Positions 1,671-62,291 of a DNA stretch of 64,000 nt are shown here, one piece after another; within the stretch, counting starts at the first letter, position 1; every line of letters starts with the position of its first letter. The notes under the pieces are model-generated. The model saw nothing but the letters and a program-made list of their open reading frames with translations. It was not told the origin of the DNA and ran no database searches. Origin of the DNA: Owenia fusiformis (taxonomy: Eukaryota; Annelida; Polychaeta; Sabellida; Oweniidae); assembly GCA_903813345.2 (NCBI GenBank), contig CAIIXF020000012.1:23138184-23202183 (forward strand), given 5' to 3'. The translations under genes and the position numbers were made by a program.

Positions 1671-1922
1671 TCATCTGGTTCGTTGGTTGTCTGGTTCGTT
1701 GGTTGTTTGGTTCGTTGGGTGGAGTGTTGGTTAGATGGTTGATTAATTAGTTAATTGGTTGGTTAGTTTTAACCTATTGGGTGGTCTGGTGGTTGTCTGG
1801 TTGGTCTGGTGGTTGTCTGGTTGGTTAGTTGGTTGGTTAGTATGTAAGTTGGTTGGTTAGATTAAGCCTATTGGGTCATTGGTTGGTCGGTTGGATGTCC
1901 GGTTGGTTGGTTGTCTGGTTGT
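1671..1922. repeat. GGTTGGTT / GTCTGGTTGGT low-complexity array
   Basis: G/T-rich, irregular GGTTG and TCTGGT words over 250 bp. Confidence 0.9.
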
Positions 1923-2260
1923 TTGACACCCCCAAGAAAAAATAACTGGAGTGATGACTTCCCAAAAACTTGAATTAAACAACCACATCCACAATCAAAA
2001 GATCCCCATTGCTCCATCAAATCCAACTCAATAAAAAGGTGACTTGAGACCCCACCCCCATGAAATTAAACTGGAACGGTACTGGAAGTAGCCCCCCCCC
2101 CCAAGACACACACTATGGAGTGAATACCTTCCCAAAAACTTGAATTAAGCAACCCAAGCTAAAATCTAAAAGACCACCGCTCAAACAAACTAAAAAGTGA
2201 AGTGACTTGAGGCCTCCCCCATTAAAAGTAGAACTGGAATAGTACTGGGAGTAGCCCACT
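1921..2260. repeat. Two-unit ~175-bp tandem repeat
   Basis: Units share TTCCCAAAAACTTGAATTAA, TGACTTGAG and GAACTGGAA...GTACTGG.AGTAGCCC. Confidence 0.8.
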
Positions 2261-2495
2261 GCTAATGGGATGAAACTGATTGCAAGAGGTAAAACTGGGC
2301 AAAAATGCGACATCTATTGTAAGTCCTGGAAACTCGACCTAGTCCCCTCGTGAAGTAAAATGTGATTTCAACAGGATCGTCATTTCGCAGGGACTTCACC
2401 ATCTGTGCTACAAATAGATAAAAACATGTTGTAGTAGTTGTTATTTTACATAAAGCTTTACATTAAACTTTGCATTATACTTTACAGTACTTAAA

Positions 2496-3115
2496 TTTAC
2501 ACTACTAAAAATTTACAGAATATTACAAAAGTTAAAATTTATTTCTCCCAATTTGATATAAACCAGTAGACTTCCATATTTCTGATTTTGAAACATGAAC
2601 TCTATCCCCCAGAAACCCAACCACCCCCCTCCCACTTTACCTCAGAGTCCAAGTTTCTCCACCAAAGAATATGGGTCGGCCAACAAAAGTCCACCAGTAA
2701 ATATCAAACTGGGAGGTGCCCCCATCCCTATGCAAAACCAGGAAGGAATACTTAACTTAGGTAGCAGGAACGTCGGTTGTAGTCCTAGTTGGCACGCAGC
2801 TGTTGTCTCCGTTGTGTCGTTGGTCATCGGGCTCCTCATCTCCAAGCTGAAAGTGAACCTGAAAACAGAGGAACTAAACTGATGTAATAATTGAATAAAA
2901 AAAATGTACTTACTTTGGTGCTTTAGTGACAGGATGGGCTCTACCACCTGATAGAGCCCATGGTGACAGGAACACGAACACCTCTCGCCTATGATTCTGT
3001 TTACGTGGCCTGGACTTGATGGCTCAAAGTTGTCGAAAGACTGATCCAGCTGTCGCCCTAACTTGGTGTGTTCGCTGCATCTCTCTCATAGTTGTACCTT
3101 AAAGATACAACATAA
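2496..3115. repeat. Segmental duplication copy 2
   Basis: Same as copy 1 except for a handful of substitutions, a 1-bp indel and an extra piece at about 2934-2963 that is a perfect palindrome (ATGGGCTCTA ... TAGAGCCCAT). On the minus strand the second exon-like frame is open here (VHFQLGDEEPDDQRHNG... ending DVPAT stop). On the plus strand a 95-codon frame ends in a hydrophobic stretch (AAVVSVVSLVIGLLIS). Neither is convincingly a gene. Confidence 0.7.
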
Positions 3116-3539
3116 GAAAATGAAAAATACAAGAATGCTACTTGGTACTGTATTTTCCTTTTTATTGCAGCCATTATTGTTTCAGACAGTTTTTTAGAAT
3201 TTCAAAGATTGTATCATCTAGATTGGATACATTTTCTGAAAGAATCTGTTCAGTGACCTTTCATGAGTTGAGTTTTGCACAAAGAAAGCATTTATGTAGC
3301 TAGAAAAGATTTATGAGATTTATTTTCAAAATCGAGCATGGTTTTGTCACTTTTTGTTTTGTTATTTCCTGTTTACTACTGCAGCACCTAATTGAGGGTT
3401 GATAATTATTCAGAATGTTTGAATAACTAGAATATTTAGTGGTTTACTTTTCAAAATTACAGAAAATTCCAACATGTATCCTGGCCTAAGGTACATGTAC
3501 AGCTGGAAAATAACATTTTGGTACAAAATTGCTATACCT

Positions 3540-43200: not shown

Positions 43201-46200
43201 ATTATGTCACCACCACAAGTGGGACATATTGTTCATGGACTCCAATTTTTGTGGATGGTGGTTGGTGTTCGGCGGTTGGCATCTGTAACAAATGGCAAGT
43301 AGTGACATTTTGGATGTTAATGCCTTGTTCATGTTTAATTTAGATTCTGAATGAAAGGTTAGGAGGTTCATTTTTCTTTGAAGCGATAGTGAAATAATGA
43401 ATAATGATCACAATCAAATGTTCTTTGACAAAGGTTGGTTAAAACTTGTGATTTCCTATAAAGAAACCTTTTTAATTGTCAATGATGAATTATTACAGCT
43501 TGATGATTATGAACTGGAGGTAAGATTCTATTGGTTACCAGGCTTGCTTTGTAGGGCTTATTAAAGTTGATATACATGTATCATCTCATCATCAACCATG
43601 ATGGACATATTAACAATGTTGAAGGGTACAAAATATTAGTGTAGTCCTAGAGCTGAAACCAATTTTCACTTCAGCATCATTTGAATTGAACATAATCATT
43701 ATTAATCTTTTCTTTTAGCTCTAATACACATAAAACGTATCATTTCACCGCTTTTATTTGAAGCATGCATAAGCTAGAAAAATATAGATCTGTATTTATA
43801 AATTCAGATTCACTTTCTACTAATACAAACACTAGTGGATTCTCTGATTTAGTCCATTGCTTATTTGGCCTCAAAGCAGTATATTGTGTTATATTGATAT
43901 AGAGACTCTACCTTAAGGGTGGGGGCTCACATTTCTTTCTCAGGGTGGTCAGTTTCTACTAACAAAACAAACTAAAGTCGAACACAGAGTGAACTGTTTT
44001 GGTTTCACTCATCCCCAGAAGCTTGATTTTATTTAGCTGGTTATTCGGTATAGGTACTGTCCAAATATTATTAATGTTGGCTTAATTCTACATTTCAAGG
44101 TCCATTCTGAGAATTTATTAACCATTTTAAAATTGTGTTGTTCCCTTCCATCTTTGTTCCATCTTTAAGCCAATGGGGGGGTGATTATTTGTACTATCCA
44201 GGATATACTGAGCAAATATTTCATTCTTTGAAGGGCAAAACCTGTTCATCTTTCAATGATTTTTGCAGCATGTATTGCCCGCAGCCCGTAGGGCGAGAAA
44301 TACATGCTTTAAAAATCATTGAAAGTGCAACTGGTATTGCCCTTCTTCAAAGAATGAAATATTTGTTTTATTATATCATTGCTAGACATTCTCTGTGATC
44401 ATTTATTTTAATCAATAATTATATCATAAACCCAGAATGCCTAAGTTAACATAATTGCGTCATTGTACAGTACACTTTATTTTCGTCCAGTGCAGTTGTC
44501 AGAATTCCCGGGCGGGCAACACACTGGGCAATACGTCTTTTATTATCCTAAAATTGAGGGAGCTGTGAAATACGCTATGGTATTTTTGATCACATGGTAC
44601 TGAATCAGCCAATCAAATCACGCAATATCTAGCAAGATATAATAAATATCAGTATTGGTTTATGTTATTTAGTTGGAGGATACCAAGGATTTCAGCAGAA
44701 GACGAGAGATTCGAGCAGCTATGAGGGAGTTACGTGCCAAGATTAAAGGTAACATTGATACCAGTTGCCATGGAAATGTTGAGTCATACAGTTAAGAATC
44801 AGTCGTCAATAATTATCCCAAATTTTCTCAATGGATTCATAGTTCTTATAGCCAAAAGTTTTGTTTTATCAATCATTGATTTTTACATCACATTAAATGT
44901 GCAAAAACTTTATGATTAAAAGATGCAATGCAATGTCCTTGTTGAGACCATCTACCTTGACTTAAGAATTGTATCAAATGTGTAATGAGGAAGCTCAACA
45001 GTTACATTTTATATTACAGAGGGTGTTATGACAGTTGCAGAAAGACCAACCACAGAAATGTCTGTCACACAAGGTGATGATGGCTCTGTCACCATGAGAG
45101 CCAGTAGTGTCACAGAGGGTGGCACACGAGTTGTCAAGACAACTGTCAAACACTCCCGCACTCCTAGCCAATCAGAAATCACTGAAAAAGACACAGTTGT
45201 AACCACAACAACAGAGGTACCAGGATGTGGTGATTTTGCCGAAACTGATCATATTGTGACAAAACGAAAAGTCACTTCGAGGAAATCCGAATACTATGAC
45301 TCGCAGGCGACATCAACGAAGACGCTTCATACACGGTCTGGTTCAGAATACACAGAAATGGATCTTGTTCAGGAACATGAGGAAGAGTCAGTCTCTAAGG
45401 ATGAACAGAAGGCAGATAGGACGCACACTAACGTCATTGTGAGGAAGCCTAGTGTTGAAATGGTACTGGATGATGCTGATACTGATGTGTTCACTGAACC
45501 TGATATTGCAGGTAAATTTAGACCAATAGATCCCATACACAATTTTTAAGCCAATATGATATTTAAGTTTACCAAAATACCAGTATACTGTGTATAGGTT
45601 ATTTACTGGGATCTAATGGAAGTAGCATCTAGAGGTGCATTTTTAAGTAATATTATATAATGATGGCAGAACAAGAGGTTGCCTTGCATATCACTTATTT
45701 TTGCATTGCATTATGGGATGTATTTCAGTGGAGCTACTGGAGGCTTTGAGTGATGTCACAGTGACAGAAGGGGAGGTGGCTACCCTACAATGTAAAATAC
45801 AGGGCCCAAAAGAACCAACTGTTACATGGTATGTCACATGGACTCTTTATTTTGAGATATTTCTTTTCTGCTAAAAAGCTGTTTTGGTGGCTTCTTGTCA
45901 TTATATGTTTTATTTGAGTTAATCTTTGGGAATGTAATATTTGATTTGTTAAAGCAACCTTTGTTTGTGAACACTTTTTGGTCACTGTCCCCTCATGCGT
46001 ATAACCTCTTCATGTAATTGCTTTTCCATGGTAGCCACTAGGCATCCTCACCACTGTTTATTTTTAGAAACATGGCCTGTAATTGGAAAAAGTGAATGGA
46101 TGATGGAGCAGCTGATTTCTTCTAGAAAATTTGGCAAATCTGCAAGATTTATTGAGAAAGGCTTGAGAAAGGTTAAATCTTTTATAACCTCAAATATACC

Positions 46201-49200
46201 TGTTTTCTCCTGTAGGTACAAGGACAGTGCAGAATTGAAGGAAACCCCCAGTATTAAGCAGACATTCACCTCAGGTGTGTGCCAGTTAGAGCTGAGGGAG
46301 ACATGTGTGGATGATGGGGGACAGTACACATGTAAGGTTGCCGGGGGCAACACTGAGATGTCAACAACAGCAGGCCTCATAGTCAATGGTAAATATGCAT
46401 ATGCATTTCAAAATGTAACTTATAGTACATCATGGATTGTGGACATTTACATTCTTTTTGAAAATGTGAAAAACTCACTTGAAATATGGCATAAATAGTT
46501 GCAAAAGCTATAAGGTGCATACACTTCCACATATGTTCAGATTTAGTTGAAAATCTATGGTTTACTTGAAAATGTGTATTGAAAGCATGTGTGATTTACT
46601 TGAAAGTATGTGATTTCAGCAAGAGAAGTTGCCCCTAAATTCATCAAAGAACTCTTGGACCAGACGGTAGATGATGGTGCAAATGTCACATTTTCCTGCA
46701 AAGTAGAAGCAAATCCTCCACCCACAATCATATGGCGCCATAATGATAAGCTCATCAAAAGTAACGCTGATTTCAAGCAGATGTTTTCTCAGAATGAGGC
46801 TAAGATGGTGGTTAATGAGGTCTTCCCAGATGACAATGGAAAGTATACATGTATTGCGAAGAATTCAGTAGGAGAGGCATTGACTATGTGTACATTGAAG
46901 GTCTTAGGTGAGTGCTACTGTATATTTTACCCTACTATCACACCAAACTAGTTCTCACTACGTTCTCGAAAACGGGCTTCAACTGTGTACGAACGGACTG
47001 GACCTACTAAGAACCGTTTGGGATCTATTTACAAATTTCATCGAACGTACTCGAACGGGTAGGTCCTCTAGAACTTTAGACAATGCTCAAAATGTTCTCC
47101 TGGTCGTCACGTTCTACAATTAGAACGAGTGACAACGTACTAACGACGAGCTGGACGTACTACGAACGGAACCGTCATACTTGAATCCTACTAGGGACGT
47201 TTTAACAACGAGTTGAACTGTCTGATGACGTGTTGAGAACGAGGTAGAACTAATTGCAAATGGGTTTAAACTGATTAAGAACGTATTTAACACTGCTTAT
47301 GAACTAGTTAGCAAAAACATAGCTATCACACCAAACAAGTTGCCACTGCGTTCTTCAAAACTGGTTTTAAACTGCGTGCGAACGGAATGAACGTAGCTGC
47401 AACTTTCTAAGGTCTATTTACGAACCTTATGAACGTTCTCAGACGGGAATGTGATTTTAGAATTTTGAATCGATTCAAAATTCGATGGCGACCATACCAT
47501 TCTGTAATCAGGTCATGTTGACCTTCTAGACTAAGGGACGCGTTCTACTACGTTGCACACCGACGTGGTGCGACCTGAACGAACTGCGAACGAGATGGAC
47601 GTATTGAAGACTGTTTAAGAATGAAGAAGCTAATTATTTCTGACATATTTCCCGACCACAGCCAGACTGAGCCCGTTTTACGACGTTTTTGTAGGACTGG
47701 CAAGAACGGGTAAGAACTAGTTTGGTGTGATAGGGGGGTAAAGGAAACTTCTTGATGCGTGCCTTAAAGCATGAAAGGCAATACAAGTAAAAGAGAGCAC
47801 ATGAGAAATCTGTAATTATACAAAATTATTAAAATTCATCTATGGCCGGATACTCTCAACCAATCAAATTGTGCATTTTTTTTTTGTTAATTATCGCTCA
47901 TCTATAAATAACCAATACGAGTATGTAACCACACTGTTAGATACAGGGGTGCTTCATTCATAGGTCAGACTCAGAACTCAAACCACCTCAGCATTAACAC
48001 TTCATCACTGTTGAATCCTACACACATTAGACAACAGTCTAAATGATTGATTTGGTTTCCCTTTGAAAATGGAACTTAAAATATATGTACTGAACAGTGT
48101 ATTTGAAAATATATGGTTTATGCTGAAACACATGCCTATGTAAGATTTACTTGAAAATATATGAAAATTATGAGAAGATTGGACTTAGGAAAGACTTCTA
48201 TTAAAATGTACTTAACTTTGTGATTTAATTGTCAAAATATATTATTATAGCCCAAGAAGTTGCCCCTAAATTCATAGAAGAACTCTTGGATCAGACAGTA
48301 GATGATGGTGCAAATGTTACATTTTCCTGCAAAGTAGAAGCAAATCCTCCACCCACAATCATATGGCGCCATAATGATAAGCTCATTAAAAGTAACGCTG
48401 ATTTCAAGCAGACGTTTTCTCAGAATGAGGCTAAGATGGTGGTGAATGAGGTCTTCCCTGATGATAACGGAGATTATACATGTATTGCGAGAAATTCAGC
48501 AGGAGAGGCATCAACTATGTGTACATTGAGAGTCTTAGGTGAGTGATGAATGCAACAGTTGTGTATCTATAAACTATAAATCCACCATATATACTCATTT
48601 TATTCATAATGATTTATACAAAAAATATTGAAAAAATCTTTTGTAACAATTATTGATATTCCTGAACTCCATTCCTAAAGAAAATGAATCATGTTATTTT
48701 TTGACACACATACATTTATGCAATTTAAACTCTCTTCTTATCCTCGCTTTGTAAGTTCCTTCTATACTAACGATGACATTTTTGTTTATATTAAATTTGA
48801 ATATTTGTTTGTTTTACAGAAGATAAGCCTAGCATCCCAGAAGTGATAGAAAAACTAAAGAACACGTCATTCAAAGATGGCCAAATTGATGCGACACTTC
48901 AGTGCGTCTTAAGTTCATCCATGACGCCATCTATCATGTGGTACAAGAACAACAAATTTCTGAAACCATCTGAGGATTTTCAACAAACATATAAAGATGG
49001 CGTTGCAAAGCTTGTGATAAGTGAAGTTTTCCCAGAGGATGCTGGGACATATGAATGCGTTGCTATGGCAAATAATGAAGAAGCCTCAACAAAGTGCAAG
49101 GTTAATGTTACAGGTAAATAAAAAATGTTGATTTTTGAGTATTTGTGAAAATATTTTCTGATTTGAGAAATTTTAATCTCAGAATAGGCATTTTTGGTCA

Positions 49201-52197
49201 TTATTGTCTAGATACGGTATTTCAAAAATTAATCTTTTTGAGCTCTCTCATATGATTGGTCAAAATGTAATATTAGTGTTAGTGTAAAGGACGAAACAAA
49301 ATAACTTTTGAGCCAAACTGAAGTCTATGTATAATGCCCCTCCTAAAATGTATTTTGTAAATCAATCAAACAAAACAATTTTTCTTTTGAAATGATTAAT
49401 ATGAGAGGTGTCACACCAACCTGAAGACGACTCGAATCTTGGGTCAGAAGTCTCAGTTTCAATTTCCAATTTACCAATTTCGCGTCGGGTCAGAACACTC
49501 AGGAATATCGTAAATTTTCGTAAAATGCTTTATTATTCCCAGCAAATTTTTCAAACTTCTAGCTGGCCTATTTCTTGTATATAGATAGATCACGAACAAA
49601 AAATAGTTTACAGTTCTTCTCTAATGATTTAATGCTAAGTTTCTATCATTTCCTTTATCAAAGCATAATATGCAGTAATGCAGGCTTAAACAGTCTTATA
49701 CTATGGCGTGTATTCATCCAGTTGTTTTAGATGCTTGTACTAAATTAATTTTTCTGTCTTCTGACCCAAACCGAAATTATCCGACCCACACACCTTTTTT
49801 CTGGGCTGACCCGACCCAAAAGAATATCTGACCCGCGACACCTTTACTAAATATATTGGAACTCCAGAAATGGACCTTATGGATAATGCTTGTATTTAAT
49901 TCACTTGTGATGGTGACATATTGTTATAGTCTCCAACATTTTTGTGGACAGCGGTGCTCAGCATCTGTAACAAATGGCAGGTGGTGACATTTTGCATGCT
50001 AATGCCTTGTCATGTCTTTTCAGAGATAACAATTCGTAAAATTGAGGCTCCAAAGTTCACTAAATATCTCAGTGACATAGAGGTCAAGGATGGTGACAGT
50101 GTGACTCTTAAGTGTCAACTCACTGCTGGAAATGGAACTGAAGTGAAGTGGTATAAAGACGGCAAAGTTTTACGATCAAGTAAAGACTTCAAACAGACAT
50201 ATATAGATGACGTTGCTAAACTGGCAATTGATGAAGTATTTGAGGATGATACTGGGAAGTACCGATGTTTCGCTAAAAATGAGTCGGGACAAGATGAAAC
50301 TACCTGCACAATGACAGTATTAGGTAATAAAAATAACAGTTTCGAACAATGTTCATATTATAGTAGCAATGATACATGTATTTATGAGTATTAATGTTAC
50401 AAATTTTAGAAATACAGAAATGTCTTTTCAACAATTTTGTAGAAAACAAATAATATCAAATTAAAGTACATGTACCAGTATATTAATCTTTATCAATCTC
50501 CAAATGTTGGGCTACTAAACTCATCAAACTGTTAAGTGATTTGGATATTAACACCCAGTATTTGGAGGTTGATTTACTTAAGCAATAGGATAGTTTCTAA
50601 ATAGCAGAAAAATCAATGAAATCTCGTGCTGCCATCTTTTATTCAGCTTTTAACTTGGGCTAGAGCTCCATTCATTTACATGCTAAAATCTTGGAAAAGT
50701 GGCTTAATTTCATGATTTATCAAAGTGTGTTTGTTGAATCTGTATAAAACTTGAATGATATACCACATGATGACCCTGTTTATGTACATGATGTGATTAA
50801 ACATGCAAATGTTGATTGACATACAAATAATCCACAGATTTAAAGAATTTTAGCATTGCATCTATGGACATTTGGCCCAAGTTTTTTAAATTGTTATAGA
50901 AAATTATTCAAATTACATAACTGTGTAAATCAAAGCTATTAAAGGAGAAAACATCTCACTGAATTCAAATATGCCATTTAAAATAAGGTAATGTAAGTCA
51001 TTAGAGGTCTAATATGCAAGTCTCTTAAAACCTCATGAAAAACGAGATTTAGCGAGATTTCAAAAGCTATATGGAAACTATACTATTAAGTTTCATGAAC
51101 ATTATTTTACAAACACTTGTCATTTATCTGAGCATAAAATAAATCTTCATGAATTTTATTCCGTTGATCCAAACTTTGAATATTTTGACATACATATAGT
51201 TTGGTCATGTTTAGTCAAACTAAGCAAAGACAAATGCTTTCATTTTTCATACCAATAAAACTTAAATGACATTTCTACTCAAAAATGCATTTGACTTACA
51301 AATTATTTAAATTTTATGTTAAGTTCTAATAGCAAAATTATCATATCATGCTTAAATCAGACATTAAACTACTTCAGTGAATCATGCCTCCTTTTTGTTG
51401 TTATGTCATTCTTTAGACATAACAACATAGGGCAGATATAGGATGAACATACATGTATTGTAAATTTTAAAAATTCTTATCTTTTTTCAAATATTGCTGC
51501 CTGCAAATTATGATATCATAGTTCTTGCCAAAATAACCAAGTTTCCTTGGTTCACCAAAAGAGGTCAGCAATTATTGAAACAGTATGTTGTTTAATAATA
51601 CCCCATAAAGCTTGAATAGAAGTACATGATGCAAATCTGTGCTTCACAGTATCTAGCACATTATCAGCACATTTTGTACAGTTAGGGGTTTCTTTTTTCT
51701 TCATTTTGAATAAACTATACCCATCCTCTTGAGGACCTGTTGTGTGTTCAAAGCCCAATGAATCAGAAATCCAATAAGAAATATTTGGTGGTTCAAATCT
51801 TCAGAGAGTAGATGAACTCTGTAGGGTGTAGGGTTAGGAAATAATTTAGAGAAACACTTTTGGTTTCATGTTTTAGAAGGTGATGTCACTCCGGATTTAG
51901 TTGATATGTTCAAAGGCCCATGAGCCATACATTAGATATTGTGTTACCATTATGTCTTGATTCAGTATAACATATATGTCATTGTGGCTTTCAGAGCCCA
52001 AAAAGATGTTTGCCCCTGATGAAAACCAGAACCAGCCAAAGATTGAAGATGTAGTGTCCACACTGAAAAAGGACAGCAAGCCAACGAATAACACAATAGA
52101 GAATAAAAGCAACAAACCCTTGAACAAAGACAACAAAATCACAAGCAATGACAACAAGGCAGGAAGCATTTACAACAATAAACCTACAAGTGATCAT
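31213..52197 (+). CDS. Smoothelin-repeat / I-set Ig muscle-cytoskeleton protein gene (16 exons, 976 aa predicted)
   Basis: Spliced gene with exons 31213-31269, 36323-36398, 38594-38661, 39374-39458, 42354-42488, 42890-43161, 43499-43519, 44673-44748, 45020-45511, 45729-45828, 46216-46388, 46620-46907, 48251-48538, 48820-49113, 50024-50323 and 51995-52197. Every junction has AG acceptor and GT donor, all phases agree, and the total is 2928 nt. Product: acidic N terminus; smoothelin-type repeats at about residues 15-44, 62-95 and 220-263 (signature RR.(I/L)RAA.R.L(R/K)); Ser/Thr-rich linkers; five I-set Ig domains at about 428-518, 519-614, 615-710, 711-808 and 809-908; Asn/Lys-rich tail 909-976. 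Smoothelins bind actin in contractile cells and I-set arrays are typical of titin/MLCK-type sarcomere proteins, so a cytoskeletal or muscle role is inferred. The calponin-homology domain of vertebrate smoothelins is not seen, so the gene may continue beyond the window. Confidence 0.85.
31886..31928. repeat. (GT)n plus poly-G run in intron 1
   Basis: GTGTGTGTG followed by GGGGGGCGGGGGGGGGGGGG; G-quadruplex-capable on the + strand. A similar run lies at 28438-28462. Confidence 0.85.
32128..32324. mobile_element. hAT-like MITE in intron 1, TSD GTAAA
   Basis: Inverted ends CAGTGATTTCCCC and (reverse complement) CAGTGATCTCCCTT, flanked by GTAAA at 32123-32127 and 32325-32329. The interior repeats GCACCCACCTGAAAAT/GCACCCACTTGAAAAT three times. 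The CAGTGAT terminus and 5-bp TSD fit hAT non-autonomous elements. Confidence 0.75.
36323..36398 (+). CDS. Exon 2: second half of smoothelin repeat 1
   Basis: Acceptor TTTCTTTCCAG and donor GTAAGA. Encodes LAEATVFTERRKLRAAL then RKLKEKKE (residues 20-44). This matches the conserved arginine-rich helical half of the vertebrate smoothelin domain (E..(D/T)F.ERR.IRAA.R.LR). It enters in phase 0 and leaves in phase 1. Confidence 0.85.
38594..38661 (+). CDS. Exon 3: linker and first half of smoothelin repeat 2
   Basis: Acceptor GTGATCAG, donor GTATGT. Encodes AEAAKANQKDYSGIED then IDQLQVL (residues 45-67). The IEDIDQLQVL end is the short acidic helix that precedes the RR-rich half in smoothelin repeats. 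Phase 1 in, phase 0 out. Confidence 0.75.
38692..38837. mobile_element. 146-bp hairpin MITE in intron 3, TA-flanked
   Basis: Inverted ends CCCTCTGGTCCAATTGAATC and (reverse complement) CTCTCTGATC, with the inner pair CTGTGCGTCATAATGCAATG / CTGCGTGTCATCATGTAATG and a TA at each side. It starts about 30 bp after the exon 3 donor. Confidence 0.7.
39374..39458 (+). CDS. Exon 4: second half of smoothelin repeat 2
   Basis: Acceptor CGTTTCCAG, donor GTACAC. Encodes LNDAPNYDEKKRIRAQ then MREVRKRLREGT (residues 68-95). The KKRIRAQMREVRKRLRE core is a clear smoothelin-type motif. Phase 0 in, phase 1 out, the same phase pair as exons 2 and 8. Confidence 0.85.
41435..41655. mobile_element. G-rich element with CAGGGGCGGATCTGGG end
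   Basis: Left end CAGGGGCGGATCTGGG, right end GGGGGCCCAGGCCCCGTG-like (reverse complement CACGGGGCCTGGGGG). Interior: runs of GGGCCCAAA and AAAAAGGCCCA. The left end equals the reverse complement of the insertion end at 11842. Target duplication not clear. Confidence 0.55.
42354..42488 (+). CDS. Exon 5: Ser/Thr/Asp-rich linker
   Basis: Acceptor GATTATTTAG, donor GTGATC. Encodes residues 96-140, a low-complexity linker with repeated (K/R)DTS motifs (LRDTSKS, TKDTSR, VDTSRKDT), probably disordered and rich in candidate phosphosites. It belongs to the gene because it starts in phase 1 as exon 4 requires and hands phase 1 to exon 6. No domain recognised. Confidence 0.65.
42890..43161 (+). CDS. 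Exon 6: acidic linker and first half of smoothelin repeat 3
   Basis: Acceptor AATCATTCCAG, donor GTATGT. Encodes residues 141-231: a Pro/Glu/Ser-rich linker with an internal duplication (NTSEAPSKQSK and TNEAPSKQSK), ending LEDIQSMPILEKL, the acidic lead-in of the third smoothelin repeat. Phase 1 in, phase 0 out, as for exon 3. Confidence 0.75.
43207..43312. repeat. Dispersed repeat copy in intron 6
   Basis: Shares GGACATATTGTTCATGGACTCC, AATTTTTGTGGATGG and CATCTGTAACAAATGGCAAG with the copy at 49906-49998. The overlapping 82-codon ORF is not credible. Confidence 0.65.
43499..43519 (+). CDS. Exon 7: 21-nt microexon inside smoothelin repeat 3
   Basis: Acceptor AATTATTACAG and donor GTAAGA bracket a 21-nt symmetric exon encoding LDDYELE. 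Both ends are phase 0, so it can be included or skipped without a frame change. It lies exactly between the two halves of repeat 3, lengthening the acidic helix. The size makes it easy to miss. Support is splice consensus and phase only. Confidence 0.6.
44213..44365. mobile_element. 153-bp hairpin MITE in intron 7
   Basis: CAAATATTTCATTCTTTGAA at the left pairs with TTCAAAGAATGAAATATTTG at the right, and an inner pair GCATGTATT/AATACATGC surrounds GCCCGCAGCCCGTAGGGCG. A close-to-perfect hairpin. Confidence 0.7.
44673..44748 (+). CDS. Exon 8: second half of smoothelin repeat 3
   Basis: Acceptor GTTATTTAG, donor GTAACA. Encodes LEDTKDFSRRREIRAA then MRELRAKIK (residues 239-263), the best match of the three to the vertebrate smoothelin core. 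It has the same 76-nt length and phases as exon 2, consistent with exon-pair duplication. Confidence 0.88.
45020..45511 (+). CDS. Exon 9: Thr/Ser-rich spacer between smoothelin repeats and Ig domains
   Basis: Acceptor TTATATTACAG, donor GTAAAT. The longest coding exon (492 nt) encodes residues 264-427. It is rich in T, S, E and K, with tracts such as VVTTTTEVPG and TSRKSEYYDS, and no cysteine-bearing fold. Probably a disordered, phosphorylatable spacer. No known domain recognised. Phase 1 on both sides. Confidence 0.8.
45729..46388 (+). CDS. Exons 10 and 11: Ig domain 1 (split)
   Basis: Exon 10 (45729-45828) and exon 11 (46216-46388) join within the codon for the core Trp (TG|G). Together they encode an I-set Ig domain: first Cys in ATLQCKI, Trp in TVTW followed by YKD, second Cys in DDGGQYTCKV. 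This is the only Ig domain here interrupted by an intron; domains 2-5 are single exons. The 387-nt intron has a consensus GTATGT donor and a TTTCTCCTGTAG acceptor. Confidence 0.85.
46620..46907 (+). CDS. Exon 12: Ig domain 2 (first of a tandem duplicate pair)
   Basis: 288-nt symmetric phase 1-1 exon encoding a full I-set domain: FSCKVEANPPP, IIWRHNDKLI, DNGKYTCIAKNS. Acceptor GATTTCAG, donor GTGAGT. Nearly identical to exon 13: I count 23 nucleotide and 8 amino-acid differences by eye. Skipping or mutually exclusive use of either copy would keep the frame. Confidence 0.9.
46932..47736. mobile_element. TA-flanked MITE in the intron between duplicated Ig exons
   Basis: Left end CCCTACTATCACACCAAACT and right end (reverse complement) CCCCCCTATCACACCAAACT are inverted, each bordered by TA (Tc1/mariner-type). 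The interior is rich in GAACG/CGTTC words and contains a second internal end-like piece (AGCTATCACACCAAACAAGT, 47321). No ORF. Confidence 0.78.
48251..48538 (+). CDS. Exon 13: Ig domain 3 (duplicate of exon 12)
   Basis: 288-nt phase 1-1 exon, acceptor ATTATTATAG, donor GTGAGT. Same domain as exon 12, with changes including K to E (FIEELL), M to T (KQTFSQ), K to D (NGDYTC) and L to S (EASTMC). Both copies are intact with good splice sites, so the duplication looks functional rather than decayed. Confidence 0.9.
48820..49113 (+). CDS. Exon 14: Ig domain 4
   Basis: Acceptor TTGTTTTACAG, donor GTAAAT. Residues 711-808 form an I-set domain: TLQCVL, IMWYKNNKFL, EDAGTYECVAM. A single symmetric phase 1 exon. 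More diverged from domains 2/3 than they are from each other. Confidence 0.88.
49408..49846. mobile_element. Possible TIR element with AGGTGTC ends and GACCC motifs in intron 14
   Basis: AGGTGTCACACC at the left and GCGACACCT at the right are inverted; GGGTCAGAA/GGGTCGGGT words flank an AT-rich centre. Weak: no clear target duplication. Confidence 0.4.
49906..49998. repeat. Dispersed repeat copy beside exon 15
   Basis: TGGTGACATATTGTTATAGTCTCCAACATTTTTGTGG then GCATCTGTAACAAATGGCAG. Related copies at 27479-27612, 43207-43312 and, more diverged, 13963-14012. Confidence 0.7.
50024..50323 (+). CDS. Exon 15: Ig domain 5
   Basis: Acceptor GTCTTTTCAG, donor GTAATA. Residues 809-908, starting EITIRKIEAPKF: TLKCQL, VKWYKDGKVL, DDTGKYRCFAKN. 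A complete I-set domain. A dispersed repeat (49906-49998) ends about 25 bases upstream of the acceptor. Confidence 0.88.
51540..51808 (-). pseudogene. LINE reverse-transcriptase C-terminal remnant (zinc-knuckle region)
   Basis: On the minus strand, a frame from about 51808 reads SLGFEHTTGPQEDGYS, then NCTKCADNVLDTVKHRFA and CTSIQALW. The C..C....D.V.H...SC......W pattern is that of the C-terminal zinc-binding segment of non-LTR retrotransposon proteins. No reverse transcriptase core is present around it. It lies in intron 15 of the smoothelin/Ig gene, antisense. Confidence 0.6.
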
Positions 52198-53360: not shown

Positions 53361-55165
53361 TTAATCTTTGTATTTTACTTCAAAGAGTTGTTCTCTCCAA
53401 TCCACTACTAGAAGATTCCCCTGATGATCTATAGTCACTGCTATTGGAAGATACAGTCCATCATCCTTAGTGAGGAGGTGTTGTAGGAAGTTACCCTCTG
53501 AGCTGATTAAACTGACTCTATGATTCCAGTGGTCAGCTACTATGATGTGCTCTCCATCAGTACAAACACCATGTGGAGTGTGTAACTGTCCTTCACCTGA
53601 TCCAGAAGTAACATATTGCAGCAGCTTCTCACCCTGTCTGCTCACCACTATAATACAGTCCCTCAACCCTTCAGACACAATCACATTGTTGTTGTTATTT
53701 ACTGCAATGAACCAAGGCCAACAAAACAACTGAGTATCTGATGTTGTATGGGATACTTCACCAGTGTCATAGTTTATGTGTGATATAGTATTGGTATCCA
53801 TATCACTAACAACTAATTCACCATCACTATTACATGCAATCCCATATAGATTGGTGAAAGGTGTGATGATGTCTCTTATGTGCTCACCATCTTGAGTGTA
53901 GATGTTGATGACACCACTACCATAACCACTTGTAAATGCTAGACAGTTATCAGGTGTAACTGTGACACATCTCATATTCTTCTGTATTGTCTTGATCAGA
54001 TTCAAGTTAAAGTAGATTTCCACACATATTTTCCTTACAATTACTAGTCTATGTGCATCTTCTGCTACTATATCATTAAAGTGACTAGATTCTTTAGATC
54101 CTTTTAAACTGAGCCTCTTAATTTTTGAATATCTTAGCTTCATTGGCACAGGAATCCTCTGTGTAGAGGAACCAGGGAGAGAACTTCCAGTAGCAAGTGG
54201 TTTGCTGTCAGTTGGGGTCTGTAGAAAAGATGAACTTTGAACATCAAAACCACTAAGTACACTTGATTGTTTTTTATAACTTAATGGCTTCTGAACACTC
54301 TTTAGTGCTCTAGGTGTTTTTTCATAACTCAGTGGGCTCTGAACACTCTCATCACTAAGTATACTGTGTGGTTTTTCAAATGGGCTCTCAATACTCAAAT
54401 GACCAAGGACACTGAGTGATTTTTCATAACTTAATTGGCTCTGAACACTCTCATCACTAAGTACACTTGATTGTTTTTTATAACTTAATGGCTTCTGAAC
54501 ACTAGTTAGTGCACTAGGTGTTTTTTCATAACTCAGTAGGCTCTGAACACTCTCATCACTAAGTACACTTGATTGTTTTTTATAACGTAATGGCTTCTTA
54601 ACACTCTTTAGTGCACTTGGTGTTTTTTCATAACTCATTGGGCTCTGAACACTCTCATCACTAAGTACACTTGATTGTTTTTTATAACGTAATGGCTTCT
54701 TAACACTCTTTAGTGCACTTGGTGTTTTTTCATAACTCATTGGGCTCTGAACACTCTCATCACTAAGTACACTTGATTGTTTTTTATAACTTAATGGCTT
54801 CTGAACACTCTTTAGTGCACTTGGTGTTTTTTCATAACTCATTGGGCTCTGAACACTCTCATCACTAAGTACACTTGATTGTTTTTTATGACTTAATGGG
54901 CTCTCAAAACTCAACCTACTAAGACTGAGTAATTTTTCAGGGGGTACTGAACTCAGTGGGCTTTGAACACTCTCATCACTGAGTTCCCTGGGTGATTTTT
55001 CATAATTTGATTTATTACTCAATGGACTTGAGGCACTCATATTATTTGGTGCATTTCCTTGGCTCATTTGGCTTTTAGAACTTGTCTCTTCTGTAGATTC
55101 CTCTCCTACTTCATGGCCTGTTGGAGAGCTAGTGGAACTATGTTGATTAAGTACCTCTAAACATC
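53361..55165 (-). CDS. Exon 4: Ser-rich repeats and NHL propeller
   Basis: Acceptor TTTCTATCTAG, entering in phase 1 (GA TGT TTA GAG), which matches the phase-1 donor at 60639. The frame is open for 98 nt before the first internal ATG (55067), so that ATG is not the true start. Residues 289-378 and 583-685 are Ser/Pro-rich; 379-582 are six 34-aa repeats. Residues 686-889 have NHL-type blades (NLYGIACNSDGELVVSD, TPHGVCTDGEHIIVADH, LPIAVTIDHQGNLLVVD). Stop TAA at 53363-53361. Candidate polyadenylation signals on the minus strand lie at 53281-53286 and 53130-53135. Confidence 0.88.
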
Positions 55166-58100
55166 CTAGATAGAAAGAGTAGAAAAATGGTGTAAATAAG
55201 GGGGAGAGTATTTGAAAACATTCTGCTTATTAAACAATAATCAGTTGTCATTTGTATAGGGCCATTCTCATATTTTAGACTTTAAGCTTGCAATATTTTT
55301 CACAATGTAACTGTGAACGCAAAGTTCATGAATCAATGCAGTAATGTATATAAAGGCAAAAATGCCAAAGGGAAGGGTGACTAAAAACTTTAAAGAAACC
55401 CAACAAGAAAAGCAAACTGTAAGTGTAAATCTGTCATAAGAAAAGTAGACCCTATTTATCCCAAAACCATGATATTACGTGAAAAGAAACAATGTCTAAC
55501 ATCCCCCTATATCACGGTGTTATAGCATGATGGTTACGTCAAGGCGGTTTGCAAAATATAACTATCAATGGCATATTAAAAGATGATGTGTAGTAGTCTA
55601 AATAGGACTAAACACTTAACCGAACAATTGTTTATGTGTGAAAACTACATGCATTTGTATAGGGCTATTTATAAACATTCAGGTAGGCGATCAGCCTGGG
55701 GGGTTGGTCGGTACCAAATCAGGGGAATAATGGCCATGGTGATTTTTGGGAAGGTGTACACCCCTAGAGTAAGAAAATATGTGATAGCATTGCAGAAGTG
55801 GCAGCTTAATGGGTGTTATCACATATTTTTCAAAATGGCCGCCGTTGCGCTTGCTACCAAATGAAAGAAGTTATATCTAAGCATACTGAGAGGCAAAATC
55901 AGTAATTTTAGGGTCTAATTCTTGGTTTTAGAGGTCACTGATTCGGTTTATGCCTAAATCCAAGTCATCAAAACATAAATTCATATGAAAATCCAAGATG
56001 GCCACCAATTTTGGTTCAAAAACAAATATATAACTAATGATACAAGCTAAAAACGTTTCAAAATGATTTTGAAGAGTTTTAGAAGAGGTTTTCAAGTCTA
56101 AGGATTTTATTCATGTCTAAATCTATGTCATAAAAGGATTACCTTATATGTAAATCCAAGATGGCTGCCAAAATAGGTGCCAAAGAACAGATAAAAAGCA
56201 ATTTTATAGATCATGAAAGGGTTTAGAGGTTAATGATTTCACTTATGCTTCATTTTAGTCTTAGTAATCAAATAATTACTTTTCATAGAAAACCAAAATG
56301 GCCGCCAATATGGGTGCCAAAACGAACATGTAACTATTAATGTAAGCTCAAAGAATAGCTAAAATGTAGTTTTATAGATCATGAAAGGGTTTGGGGATCA
56401 ATGATTTTATTGTCTTAGTTTTCAAAGAATAACTTGATGTCACCATTAATATAAGCTCAATGAACACTTACAGTACAAAGTGATTTGGAGACCATGTCTA
56501 AGTTTCAATGGTCAAGAGTTTTAAGTCAATGGCTTAGGTTTCAATGGTTGAGAACTTTAAGTCATCAAATAATTCTTTTATTTGGATATTCAGGATGGCA
56601 ACCAAAATGGCTGCCAAAATGAATAATTAATTTTGGAACATATTCATTTGGATATCAAAGATGGCCCTGATGTGATGTACCATCTCAATTGTACTTTCTT
56701 CATCAAAATGATGAACTGGTTTATGAAAGCAGAGGAGTCCTAATATGGAGGTCTCAAAGGGAATGATGATACAAGACATCCTTCTTGCCGAGCCTTTATG
56801 GACATCATTAATGTTATGACCTAGTCATTCCGTGGAGCATAACGGATTTTAAGCTGCTTGGAGAAGATGAGATGTATGTAGTGCAATCCCAGGAATCTTT
56901 TCAACTGAGTGGTATACAAAAAGGAATATCCTTTGCATTCATTCGACTTCGCTTCTGAAAAGAGAGCTTCATCTAGTTTAACAAGACTCTGCGAGCAGGG
57001 TAACAAATGAAGCTAATGTGCAATTTTTCATACTATCCATGATGAGAGAATTGAATATATTTTGACAAAATATTTTGATGGGTCCCAACAACAGCATCTG
57101 TGAGAACTAGAAAAGTGGATGAAAGCTCCTGACCTTATATTATCAATGTAGGAAGTTGGTACATAGAGATTATCCTATATGAGGTTCAGGATATTGGGAT
57201 TATTCCGAGGCCAATATAATATATCTGCCCGAGGGCCGTAGGTCTGTAAAGAAAGGACAAACTCAATCCAAGTCTACAATTACACAGAAGATAATATCTC
57301 GGATGGACTGAAGAGTGTCGAGTATGAAGACCTCATTGACAAAGTAAGGTGTAAAGGGTGGAAGGTGAGACACTTTCCAGTGCATGTAGGCTTTAGCGGC
57401 TTCCAATGTTCTTCTCAGAACATCATGTTGAGAGAACTAAGTCTGCAGCCTGTGAACTTCAAGATGGCAATAAAGGAAATAGGTTAGATGGTTGAGTCAT
57501 GCTCCATGTGAATGTGGTAATTTATTTTGGCAGCCAGTTTGGTGACCATTTTGGATTTTAATATGAGGAAAGGTTAGGATAACTTAAGTAAAGGCTTAGT
57601 AAATTGAAACCATTATCTCCCGAAACCCAGTCTCAGATATCTATAACATAACTATTCTAATTTTTCTATGTGCTTATAAATTCATTTTTGCAGCCATTTT
57701 GGCAGCCATTTTAGATTTCTATATAAAGGTATTCTTTAATCACTTCAATTTACACATGAATGGAATCCTTAACATCTAAAACCTTACCATGGTCACCAAA
57801 AGCAACCGTTTTTTGAGTTTACATAAATAGTTACATATTCATTTTGACATCCATTTTGGTGGCCATTTTGGATTTCTATGTAAAGTAGTTCTTTGATTAC
57901 TTAGATTTAGAGACAAATAAAATCCCTAGCCTCTAAAACCTTTCATGGTCTCCAAAGTCACTTTTAACCGTTCTTTGAGCTTTTTGAACTTATATCGATA
58001 GTGACATATTTGTTTTGACATCCATTTTGGTGGCCATCTTGGATTTCGAATTCTTTGATGACTTAGATTTTGACTTAAATAAAATCCTTGACACCTAAAA

Positions 58101-61100
58101 CCCTGAAATAGACCTCAAAATCACTGTTTTTGTCTCTCAGTATGCTTAGATATAACTTCTTTTATTTGGTAGTAAACGCACCGGCGGCCATTTTGAAAAA
58201 TGGGTGATAACACCCATTTAGCTGCCACTCCTGCAATGCTATCATATAATTTCTTACTCTAGAGGTATTTACCTTGCCAAAAATCACAATGAGGCTTATT
58301 CCCCTAACTTGGTACCGATAACCTAAATTTATGGGTGAAGCCTAAGGTTGTCATTTAGATTTTATATCTATTGCTTAAAGTCTCCATTATCTGCCGATCT
58401 ACCCTTTGACCTCCCTTGACGACTGACTGGTACATGGTTGTCATCGGTAGGTAGAATTAGATTAAATTGTTGCAGCATTTAATTTTGTTTCAATAAATTG
58501 TATTTTATGCTGACTTATGCAATGTACTCAAAAATGTTAAAAGTGATAGAGGATTGTTACGTAAATAGAAGGGGTTAGAAGTGCAGGTATTAACGTTTTT
58601 TGTTTTTTTTGAAGTTCTATTTATGTTACAAAAGTGAGGTATTTTAAAATTGATGGTTCTGTTGTCTTTCTGAACTATTTGTTCGCAAACATGTACATTT
58701 TCTTAGACATATGATACTGACACATGTTTGTGATAAAAATGCCTACAACTAGTGAAATAAGGAAAAAAGAAAAACCATACTTTCTAGGTTCCGACATTTT
58801 GTTACTGAAAGAATTCATTTTGGTAAAAACACAGTCGAGTGGAGAACCAGTGAAAATAATTTACACCAACTCATAACATAAATCCTAACCTACAGTAATT
58901 TGTGTTGAAAAAATGAAGAAAATTGGTTGAAATAAAAGCATGAAATTACCTCATGAGCACAGAAAAGTGGTTCAGAGAAAACAAGCATTTTGAAATTTTT
59001 GTAAGGAATTTTCTGATAATTAATTTTTTAAATATCCATTTGCAGTGGCAGAGCTATATAACATTATTACATTTGCAGTTGCACTAAATAAGTTCCCTGA
59101 GATTTGTAGATTTAAGTTAGGTTCATTTGTGCTATATGTTGGGTGCATTACTTAGCGCCCCCTACTTTTATGCCCCATCACATATTTTTAATCTCCAGTC
59201 TTAATTAAACATTTTGTTTGAGGTTTTCCTTTCATTTTGTTTAGGTCAGATCACATACTAAATGTTGAATACAAAAAATGTATGCCAAAATGGTATACAT
59301 TGGAAGCTACGATAATTTTCTGTGCCCTAGTTTACAATATGAACTGGACAAAATGAATTTACTAGTGTTTTACTCAAGCTTTTGAAATATTTAGCAAGTT
59401 GAAATCGAGTTGGATTTTCCTGGAGAATTACACCTCCACTCATGACATCACAAATATGTGCATAGAATCATAGATTGAATGGTTGAAATGATATAACTTA
59501 TGCTTGATCTATTCAATAGAGTAGAGAATGTTATGTGTTTTAAAGTGTTAATTGTTATATTTGATCATCTAAAAATCTAAATTTTTGTTTTTAAAATGGC
59601 ACGATATTGAAATATTTGAAAATTATAAGATGGCCAACTTTTTTCAAAAGATGCATTTTAAAAAAATGTCTCAAATAGTTTTTAAAGTCATGAAAAGTAA
59701 TCGGCTTATATTATAGTAAACAAGGCATGTATTCATTTAGACTATTTTGTATGCCCGTGGTGTTAGTGAATTGTGTACACTCACACAATTCTTTTGAAAG
59801 ACTTAACGGTTTATGCAATCAGACTCCTATGGTACACTAGCAACTAGGCGACACAGTTGACACATCGTAATTAGCGGTGTAAGTGCGCTTGAATGCGCTG
59901 TTTTTATTGAAAACGTGTGAGCCTGTAATTTGTAACACAGGGGCTCATCGTTCTTTTTCATGATACCTATGGGGAAAACTTATGCAATATACTGGCACCG
60001 TGGGCAGTTTAAAAATACAGTCTATTAGCCTTTTCCCTACTAGTAGAGAATCAGTATGTCAGCACAGTCATTGGTTACTAACATACTATGCATTTAAGTA
60101 TGCAGAACATATCAATCCCCATTGCGTATAGAGTAAACTGAGTAAACGATCGAACATTTACAAAGTAAGGAATATGTAATAAGAAAGTATGATAGAACTT
60201 CAAAGAGTGACAAAGCCAAATCTTGCATTATATATATCACCACTGTTTAATGAAAATGTATGCATAATTATTCAAGGAAAATCTAAATTATAAAGGGATT
60301 TGTTATTACACCCAGGCCCCTGGGTGTTTCTTTCTTTATAATGGCTGCTACTTTTTGAAATGAAGGTACACATGAGCCAAGTACCTACCCATGGATTTAT
60401 TTTTATGCTACTATGCTATACAGGAAACACAAATTAATAAACAACATGTATGGCAGCAGATAAAAACAAAATCTTTAACAAAGAATATTAATAAATATAT
60501 AATATTGAGAGTTTTGAGTCAATCAATGGATGTCAAATTCAACGAAACACTAAATTCAACAGGAGGTTATGGAGGTTAGAAAAAACAATTAACCTGATTA
60601 TGTTTAAAACCAGTTAATAACTAAATGTAAAGGCTCACCTTTATCCTGAGACAAGCATTCTTGAACTAGCTCGTCATCTATTGTTAGAGTAACTTCAATA
60701 TAAGATCCAAAAAACTCCATTCTAACATCTTCTGGAATTAGCACTGTTACAAGCTCCATAATTAAATCTCCACTGTGAAAATCTTCTATCAATTTCACTG
60801 CTCTTTGTTGGTCAATAACCTTCAATTCGAATACTATTGAACTTCTTTTGGTGTCTAATAATTTCACATCACGTTGTGCCAATAGTTCTTCGATTTCTCG
60901 TTTTAATTTTGGGTCTGATTTCATCGCTGCATATATCTTATTTTCAAGCTCATTTTCATGATTGCCTTCACTGTTCTGTAGCTGTGATTCTTCTACATCA
61001 TGAATCTCCTTGTAAGACTTTCCCAGATGAAAATGTATAGACCCTATATGATGAAAAAGTTTATTAATTGATTTAATGAATTGTTTTAGTTTTTTGACAT

Positions 61101-62291
61101 GTTATACAAATGTGCAATAGCTTTAGTTGTTGAACTATCACATTTTGGCTATAAGTCTTAAGAATTTTATAAAAATATCTTAAATAAGTTCAAAATTGAG
61201 CCAAATACCCATGGTGCTATTTCTATTTCTGTTTCTTACAATTATATATAAGTTTGATAAAATGTCATTTTTATTGTTCAATAAATATCAGTACCTTTGA
61301 AATTTTCAGGAGTTGCTATCACTATTTTAATATCATCGATTTCTTCAATTTTAGTCTCGTTGTCAAATGCAACCTTGTAACATCGTTTCCCAGCTTCTTT
61401 TGGGCCACATGCTTAAGGATAAAAATAAATAGAACATATGTCAAAGACGCATTTATTTTCTACATATTACTACAGCAAAGGGAGATAGTCATCACGTGAC
61501 ATTAATTTTTTTTGATGTTGCGCAAACAGACTGTTATTGTATTCTATACTTAATTCACAATGTTGAGTCTTGTTTCACTTATGTATCTCAACTCAGTCTT
61601 TCAAACAAACCCAAAGAGCTGCATATTTTATTGCAAACAATTTCAAACAATTATATTTTGAATTACTTATATATTCTGACCATGAAGACAGATGTTTCTT
61701 TAAGATCCGCTTATTAGATATATTCATACGCTCATTGTATGTTCAAGAAAAATATATGTAATGATAATTAAGTTAATCAGATTAAGATATAATGAACCCA
61801 TCAACATACCTTTTCAAAAATGTTGACCTAATTTACTCTGAAGAGGCAATGTTGTTAATTGCATAATTAGAATATGCTTTGAGACATGTTTTATTTCCTA
61901 AAAGGAAAAGTGGATTGCTCCAGGGACTTTAAAGACACTGGTACTTACCTAATTTGGACTTATACTCCTTCACTTTCCCAGCAAGATCTAGTCTGTTTGC
62001 TTCCCTCAAAACCTCACATAGAATATCTACCAGTGGTGCACCAGGTGATTGCCTTTTCTTCCACGCTGTTAGCAGGTCATATCCCCATAGTCTGGCTGAT
62101 TTCCGCGTTTCCTGAATATTTTTCAGCTCATCATCCGTGAAATCAAGATGAATTCCAATGTCAGTAAAGTGGTCTCCAATTTGTGTGCCAATCTCTAAAA
62201 ATAGCTTTCTATAAAATGTGTCGTCTATCTTGTTTTCAGTCCTTTCATGGCTTTCCATAGTTGTAGATACAAGATTAAAATCTTTTAGCAT
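53361..62291 (-). CDS. Death domain - Ser-rich repeat - NHL propeller protein gene (4 exons, 889 aa)
   Basis: Minus-strand exons 62291-61949, 61411-61295, 61043-60639 and 55165-53361 join with GT/AG sites, all internal junctions in phase 1. The total is 2670 nt, exactly 890 codons with the stop. Product: Death domain (about 26-112), middle region 115-288, Ser/Pro-rich region with six 34-aa repeats (379-582), NHL-repeat propeller (about 686-889). Death domains mediate homotypic signalling assemblies and NHL propellers bind protein or RNA, as in TRIM2/3/71. No RING, B-box or coiled coil is seen, so it is not a canonical TRIM-NHL. Function is inferred to be adaptor-like. Convergent with the smoothelin/Ig gene. 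Confidence 0.8.
54285..54896 (-). repeat. In-frame 102-bp coding minisatellite (six 34-aa units)
   Basis: Six consecutive 102-nt units (612 nt) plus a partial seventh, all in frame. Consensus starts LSYKKQSSVLSDESVQSP and continues with SYEKTPSALKSVQKP. Units 1-4 are almost identical, units 5/6 diverge (FEKPHSI). Each unit holds SP/TP sites and acidic-serine motifs. Copy number is likely to vary between alleles, and a collapse in assembly is possible. Confidence 0.9.
55300..55665. repeat. Dispersed repeat fragment shared with 11165-11805
   Basis: Matching blocks ACTGTGAACGCAAAGTTCAT, AATGCAGTAATGTATA and GTTTATGTGTGAAAACTACA occur in the same order at 11165-11215 and 11762-11800. Confidence 0.65.
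55703..58323. mobile_element. Inverted-repeat element of AAnATGGCNGCC motifs in the large intron of the Death-NHL gene
   Basis: 55703-56660 and about 57440-58323 are inverted copies (GGTACCAA..AGGGGAATAA, TGATTTTTGG.AAGGT, ATGATAGCATTGCAG, TTATATCTAAGCATACTGAG). Each arm repeats a ~130-170 bp unit built of AAGATGGCCACC / AAAATGGCTGCC words, ATGATTT and AAGTCATCAAA. The centre 56700-57430 is unrelated single-copy-looking sequence. Target duplication not found. Confidence 0.75.
58324..60638. other. Remainder of the large intron of the Death-NHL gene
   Basis: No exon with matching phase-1 splice sites was found. Contains the dispersed segment 59145-59245 and two short hairpins near 59770 (GAATTGTGT/ACACAATTC) and 59920. 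Confidence 0.5.
59145..59245. repeat. Dispersed 100-bp segment (second copy 62993-63095)
   Basis: Both copies contain GCCC.ATCACATATTTTTAAT, CCAGTCTT.ATTAAACATT and GAGGTTTTCCTT, in the same orientation. One sits in the Death-NHL large intron, the other inside the mariner-type MITE. Confidence 0.75.
60639..61043 (-). CDS. Exon 3: conserved-looking middle region of the Death-NHL protein
   Basis: Acceptor TTCATCATATAG, donor GTGAGC. 405 nt encode residues 154-288, with a helical charged start (HDVEESQLQNSEGN) and a compact alpha/beta-looking part: FELKVIDQQRAVKLIEDF, MELVTVLIPEDVRMEFFG, IEVTLTIDDELVQECL. I do not recognise the family. The pattern looks folded, not linker-like. Confidence 0.82.
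61295..61411 (-). CDS. Exon 2: short linker exon of the Death-NHL gene
   Basis: Acceptor TTTATCCTTAAG, donor GTACTG; 117 nt, phase 1 in and out. Encodes ACGPKEAGKRCYKVAF followed by a segment with EEIDDIKIV and ending PENFKG. Residues 115-153. No domain recognised; the length is symmetric so skipping would keep the frame. Confidence 0.72.
61949..62291 (-). CDS. Exon 1: Death domain
   Basis: Starts at ATG 62291 (MLKDFNLVSTT); an in-frame TGA lies 36 nt upstream. A second ATG at codon 12 (MESHERTENK) is an alternative start. Residues about 26-112 carry the Death-domain pattern: LFLEIGTQIGDHF, GIHLDFTDDELKNI, LLTAWKKRQS, LVDILCEVLREANRLDLAG. It ends with a GTAAGT donor in phase 1. The order and spacing of the predicted helices fit the family. 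Confidence 0.88.

Follow-up and report, generated by a model that had tools for sequence, protein, structure and literature searches.

Proteins that join a Death-like domain to a TRADD-N domain and carry variable C-termini have been proposed to serve marine invertebrates as a fast-changing immune system (PMC8195603, main text). In the account given there, Death-like domains recruit partners through homotypic contact, TRADD-N acts as a switch between two domains, and propellers are proposed as sensors of invaders. TRADD-N itself is described as an RRM-like sandwich in which the helices are kinked and the β2-β3 turn bears a conserved 'uS' (a tiny residue and Ser), the serine of which touches TRAF2 in TRADD. 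Proteins of Branchiostoma have the order DED, TRADD-N, low-complexity linker and WD40, and the groups listed in that text as having TRADD-N expansions include no annelids. The present analysis concerns a predicted gene of the annelid Owenia fusiformis, on the minus strand of a 64,000-nucleotide stretch, here called the window (assembly GCA_903813345.2, contig CAIIXF020000012.1, positions 23,138,184 to 23,202,183). The favoured reading, with a probability of roughly 0.6, is that one gene specifies an intracellular sensor-adaptor of about 880 residues, in which a Death domain is followed by a TRADD-N-like domain, a Ser-rich repeat linker and a six-bladed NHL propeller. Its exons are open and bounded by splice signals in matching phases, Death and NHL domains are called in its translation, and relatives are present elsewhere in the genome.

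The predicted protein resembles those of Branchiostoma in placing a Death-like domain first, then TRADD-N, a low-complexity linker and a C-terminal beta-propeller, and in having the conserved β2-β3 serine; it differs in carrying Death in place of DED and NHL in place of WD40, and in its annelid host (PMC8195603, main text). The same source gives DEDD2 as a protein with a Death-like domain first and TRADD-N next, but the window gene again has Death rather than DED and adds a propeller. Vertebrate TRADD, which binds the MATH domain of TRAF2, also unites TRADD-N and Death within one adaptor, but the window gene has them in reverse order (Death, then TRADD-N) and carries a propeller, so that the domain order of a TRADD orthologue is not found. 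The TRIM-NHL proteins (TRIM2, TRIM3, TRIM71, Brat, LIN-41 and Thin) share the six-bladed NHL propeller, and NHL relatives in the Owenia genome are RING–B-box proteins, but the window gene is without RING or B-box and has Death and TRADD-N in front. Proteins of this kind are already known, while the Death–TRADD-N–NHL combination appears to be new. PMC8195603 describes no TRADD-N system for annelids in its main text, where neither 'annelid' nor 'NHL' occurs as a word, although its supplementary tables may list such proteins. Within the literature searched, no paper had both 'TRADD-N' and 'NHL', and a Death–NHL protein could appear in print under other words.

Structure of the predicted gene

Four minus-strand exons of 343, 117, 405 and 1805 bp (Table 1) join to give 2670 bp, or 890 codons, which specify 889 residues and a single terminal stop. 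The intron donors are, in order, GTAAGT, GTACTG and GTGAGC, the acceptors finish in AAG, TAG and TAG, and all three introns lie in phase 1 in the spliced reading of the window. The original prediction, made from the letters alone, had proposed these four exons with phase-1 joins and 890 codons, and both the splice sites and the translation bear it out. The 117-bp exon 2 is the least certain of the four; its acceptor was judged weak, and its one plausible counterpart, which lies just upstream of the TRADD-N exon at another locus (L007), aligns only at E 2.8.

Pfam searches of the 889-residue model returned Death (PF00531) with 24.4 bits, or 28.9 bits for the N-terminal piece alone (cut-off 22.6), and NHL (PF01436) with 46.2 bits (cut-off 20); neither RING nor B-box was listed at E up to 10. 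An N-terminal Death domain and a C-terminal NHL propeller in a single gene model lacking RING and B-box, as originally predicted, were therefore both recovered above their curated cut-offs. The AlphaFold2 model of the NHL region has 24 strands, arranged as six blades of four (pLDDT 92.2); among solved structures, the NHL domains from TRIM2 and TRIM3 match it best, at E about 1e-18 (7qrv_A, E 1.0e-18, TMq 0.87).

Owenia fusiformis has 12 chromosomes, with Fox genes on nine and tandem duplications of foxQ2 on two (PMC9539403). In the genome searched here, 38 Forkhead matches fall on nine of the contigs C1-C12, and C8 and C10 carry runs of at least three closely spaced copies; the contigs are numbered differently from the chromosomes of that paper. 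This genome (498 Mb, 525 contigs, the window being on contig C12) was searched for relatives of each part. For NHL, 147 of 292 candidate matches were scored, and counts drawn from them are lower bounds. These were cross-listed with 13 TRADD-N-like matches and with 65 + 67 Death matches, which mark 100 distinct places. Only two of the 147 scored NHL matches, the window and a locus on contig C1, have a Death match at most 20 kb upstream on their own strand, and only one, the window, has TRADD-N upstream.

The gene on C1 (L001) is the nearest counterpart in layout. It reads Death–Death–linker–NHL, with an in-frame join, GT/AG sites, introns of 332 and 717 bp and 612 residues. Its two Death exons are 59% and 56% identical to the window Death domain, its NHL domain is 73% identical, and a phase-1 junction leads into the NHL exon in both genes; it differs from the window gene in having two Death exons, no TRADD-N and a short linker. 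The acceptors ahead of the NHL exons of the two genes look related and have one 13-mer in common, equally far from the exon in each, a likeness whose local score was attained anywhere in 147 bases by 9 of 1000 dinucleotide shuffles. Because the C1 gene joins Death to NHL in frame, the combination in the window is unlikely to be an accident of gene modelling. Likeness to the C1 gene also begins at 'TMES', and Met12 at 62258, rather than 62291, is for that reason probably the start codon, which would give a protein of 878 residues.

The middle exon as a candidate TRADD-N domain

Exon 3 has 12 relatives elsewhere in the genome, making 13 loci, and the same 13 were returned when a distant member was used as the query. 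The window copy is at most 47% identical to its family. An alignment of 10 of the 13 (the members at L012, L013 and L015 were left out) contains 11 invariant columns, including a serine just before β3. This serine is present in 10 of 10 rows and is located at the β2-β3 turn of the predicted model; the residue preceding it is Ser in the window and G, S, Q, E, H or N among the relatives. AlphaFold2, run on the alignment, gave a β-α-β-β-α-β topology in which both helices are broken (pLDDT 77; strands 2-9, 60-66, 70-76 and 117-122, helices 30-43/45-56 and 79-91/93-102). When the members were scanned singly, Pfam TRADD-like_N (PF20694) matched five of the ten, at best with 4e-4 and below the cut-off, and TRADD_N (PF09034) matched one (0.13). 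A comparison by hhalign with the TRADD-like_N exon on C10 was weak (probability 21.5%, E 0.001). A Death match lies upstream on the same strand at seven of the 13 loci, the window included, within 10 kb, and at one more within 20 kb, and the window exon itself sits between the globular Death and NHL domains.

Taken together, the weak profile matches, the motif, the topology and the Death/CARD context make it very probable that exon 3 is a diverged TRADD-N domain. The original prediction had described an unfamiliar, folded-looking middle region; a fold is indeed predicted, but the region is probably TRADD-N-like rather than unfamiliar, a likeness that the first reading had missed.

Several results weigh against the proposed Death–TRADD-N–NHL gene. 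Window exon 3 has no match to any Pfam family at E up to 10, and the best TRADD-like_N score among its relatives is 20.6 bits against a curated cut-off of 23.7. When PF20694 was run against the whole genome at E up to 1, it recovered only one of the 13 (C523, with 21 bits, short of the cut-off); two other genes scored above the cut-off, L018 (C10:8160300-8161300) and L019 (C1:40544500-40547500), which we take to be DEDD2-like and NCOA6-like, respectively. TRADD is absent from the results of the PDB profile search, Foldseek and VIA-align for exon 3. The profile search with the exon 3 family returned a single match, a tRNA synthetase at E 0.78, Foldseek returned nothing at E up to 0.001 for the exon 3 model, and VIA-align gave Z scores up to 4.5, several of the rows being presumably ferredoxin- or RRM-like. 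Outside exon 3, intron 3 is 5.5 kb long and carries an inverted-repeat element, only half of the NHL candidates (147 of 292) make up the scored set, and the NHL tree unites the window with a gene on C8 at only 64% bootstrap, which would suit one fusion or several, in more than one order.

Other members of the family show further arrangements. At L017 (C8:31129500-31133500, minus strand) a CARD exon (2892-3353, 2.2e-10) lies upstream of a TRADD-N-like exon (1089-1490), and this is probably a CARD–TRADD-N gene. A reverse-transcriptase frame (1901-2890, minus strand, 1.9e-13) adjoins the TRADD-N exon of L013, and a frame that reads as transposase-like (by reading only) lies between Death and TRADD-N at L010 (7347-7833, plus strand). 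An apparent 1810-residue open frame at C235:240262 was taken to be a run of N, being absent among the L012 frames with fewer than 20 X, and was discarded.

Relatives of the propeller and the proposed function

The alternative that survives best, although unlikely, is that two neighbouring genes have been joined: a Death–TRADD-N gene whose last exon finishes at 60639, and an independent NHL gene that starts in or just before exon 4. The length of intron 3 and the element within it would suit such a division, as would the internal ATG codons of exon 4 and the 12 other TRADD-N-like loci, which are without a scored NHL match downstream. Exon 4, however, begins with a good acceptor in the correct phase, and a related acceptor lies 717 bp after the Death exon in the C1 gene; the Death-to-NHL junction of that gene speaks against splitting. 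In addition, the frames that follow TRADD-N at L006, L007 and L008, and one frame of L012, are unmatched between window exons 3 and 4 at E up to 5; the three weak matches obtained lie far off, at 22.7, 29.8 and 33.6 kb.

The nearest relatives of the window propeller among the 147 scored matches are C8:2381834 (77% identical) and the C1 gene (C1:10412311). The C8 gene (L002) consists of one open frame, 1101 residues long, that contains RING and B-box as well as NHL and numerous repeats resembling 'SDMSVQSPMTYENPPSVL'; the linker repeats of the window are about 69% identical in DNA to its repeats. Two further NHL relatives, L004 and L005, are also RING–B-box proteins (by reading, whereas L002 was assigned by Pfam). 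The closeness of both propeller and repeats, with RING and B-box in only the C8 member of the pair, would be consistent with a protein that modulates the RING–B-box–NHL protein or acts as its decoy; it might compete for the ligand, or pair with the ligase and so tie it to a Death complex. This is improbable; a decoy would have no need of Death and TRADD-N domains.

For the sensor-adaptor, the following course of events may be envisaged. The NHL propeller would bind a ligand, which could be an invader's RNA or protein or a host molecule that has been altered, and binding would cluster the protein or free the TRADD-N-like switch. The Death domain would then nucleate a homotypic complex with other Death proteins, and so set off an immune response or the death of the cell. 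As it lacks a RING domain, the protein would not itself be a ubiquitin ligase of the RING type. From the parts, a role in immunity or cell death may reasonably be inferred. The original prediction had already suggested an adaptor with an NHL sensor, and the layout agrees with it in having Death and NHL without RING or B-box and in recurring in a second Death–NHL gene, but the TRADD-N-like middle and the RING–B-box NHL relative had been missed.

Solved NHL relatives bind RNA (according to the titles of 4zlr, 5ex7, 6fq3 and 8j72), and the protein might instead be an RNA regulator like Brat or LIN-41, in which Death and TRADD-N are merely docking sites for proteins, with no part in death or immunity. 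The nearest solved relatives are, however, TRIM2 and TRIM3, and Death together with TRADD-N typically marks adaptors of cell death and immunity (PMC8195603, main text), so that this explanation appears rather improbable.

Probable mosaic origin, rates of change and other features

The gene probably arose by the combination of phase-1 exons from families of its own genome, to judge from the sequence likenesses. The Death domain would be of the kind found on C1 and C12, the short linker and TRADD-N-like domain would derive from Death–TRADD-N genes, and the repeats and NHL would be those held in common with the RING–B-box–NHL gene. The window Death domain, close to the C1 exons, shares only 29-32% identity with its counterparts at six Death–TRADD-N loci. 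Each of exons 2 and 3 has phase 1-1, and the pair could be inserted between Death and NHL in a gene like that on C1 with the frame kept intact; the phases would also allow Death to splice directly to NHL. Loss of TRADD-N from the C1 gene and its gain in the window gene are equally possible. One genome retains likely relatives of every part, namely families of Death and of Death–TRADD-N genes and an NHL gene of the RING type; domain shuffling, and the idea that a sensor can be transferred from ubiquitin to death signalling, are therefore directly testable.

Two further places carry related Death exons. L003 (C12:11523300-11532800, plus strand) has three consecutive Death exons, 44-53% identical to the window Death domain. 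No scored NHL match (among the 147) occurs within 20 kb downstream of this array, and no evident partner was seen by eye among plus-strand open frames of at least 80 residues in the 10 kb that follow (L020). L021 (C2:4375800-4385700, plus strand) has a Death exon (147-470, 1.2e-11) that is 43% identical to the window Death domain, and an open frame (843-1964) with an Exo_endo_phos nuclease domain (2.4e-6) begins less than 400 bp after it; this is possibly a Death–nuclease gene.

Synonymous divergence (dS) between the window and C1 is 0.30 (0.21-0.40) for NHL, and 0.73 (0.43-1.26) and 1.50 (0.80-3.47; 265 of 300 bootstraps finite) for the two Death exons; between the window and C8 it is 0.225 for NHL. 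The pattern suggests that the NHL cassette was exchanged later than the Death domains diverged, although hidden paralogy of the Death exons could give the same values. Omega (NG86 throughout) is 0.16-0.34 for the window Death domain against the C1 Death exons, a sign of constraint on Death, 0.26-0.44 for the TRADD-N comparisons and 0.63 for NHL against C1 and C8, with an interval that reaches 1.04. Faster change of the propeller than of the Death domain is not firmly shown, because the bootstrap intervals for NHL (0.41-0.89) and for one Death comparison (0.20-0.76) overlap.

A broader possibility, put forward tentatively, is that one sensor serves several outputs. The NHL cassette may have been exchanged between loci on three chromosomes and wired to different signalling fronts. 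The outputs, each joined to a near-identical ligand-binding end, would perhaps be a RING–B-box ligase (C8), tandem Death domains (C1) and Death–TRADD-N (window). If true, the animal builds new immune adaptors by shuffling phase-1 exons. That the window gene is instead a young chimera, transcribed yet functionless, is very improbable: the close NHL domains of the window and C8 and the NHL omega of about 0.63 would fit, but every exon is open, the splice sites are intact, and omega for Death and TRADD-N is 0.16-0.44, though these pairs reflect the families as much as the window copy.

The features of the gene are collected in Table 1. The tandem repeat has a 102-bp unit in 6.5 copies, and the element in intron 3 has 265-nt arms that are 85% complementary, with further inverted repeats inside. 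A stretch of the same intron (59558-59683) that is common to the C1 intron overlaps a match in L015 and is probably a dispersed repeat.

Table 1. Features of the predicted Death–NHL gene (window positions)
Feature	Position	Strand	Evidence
Exon 1, Death domain (residues 31-110 of the 889-residue model)	61949..62291	-	Splice reading, Pfam, C1 Death exons
Exon 2, short linker, phase 1-1	61295..61411	-	Splice reading; weak L007 counterpart
Exon 3, probable TRADD-N-like domain, phase 1-1	60639..61043	-	13 own-genome loci, alignment, Pfam on relatives, predicted model
Exon 4, Ser-rich repeat linker and NHL propeller, through the stop codon	53361..55165	-	Splice reading; C1-like acceptor
102-bp tandem repeats encoding the Ser-rich linker	54251..54911	-	Repeat scan
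Six-bladed NHL propeller	53364..54134	-	Pfam, predicted structure, solved matches
Inverted-repeat element within intron 3, non-coding for protein	55708..58318	.	Arm complementarity

A scan for bacterial promoters and terminators was set aside as meaningless for an animal gene. On the plus strand of the window, three open frames with I-set immunoglobulin domains (45971-50394) form part of a neighbouring gene that runs toward the Death–NHL gene.

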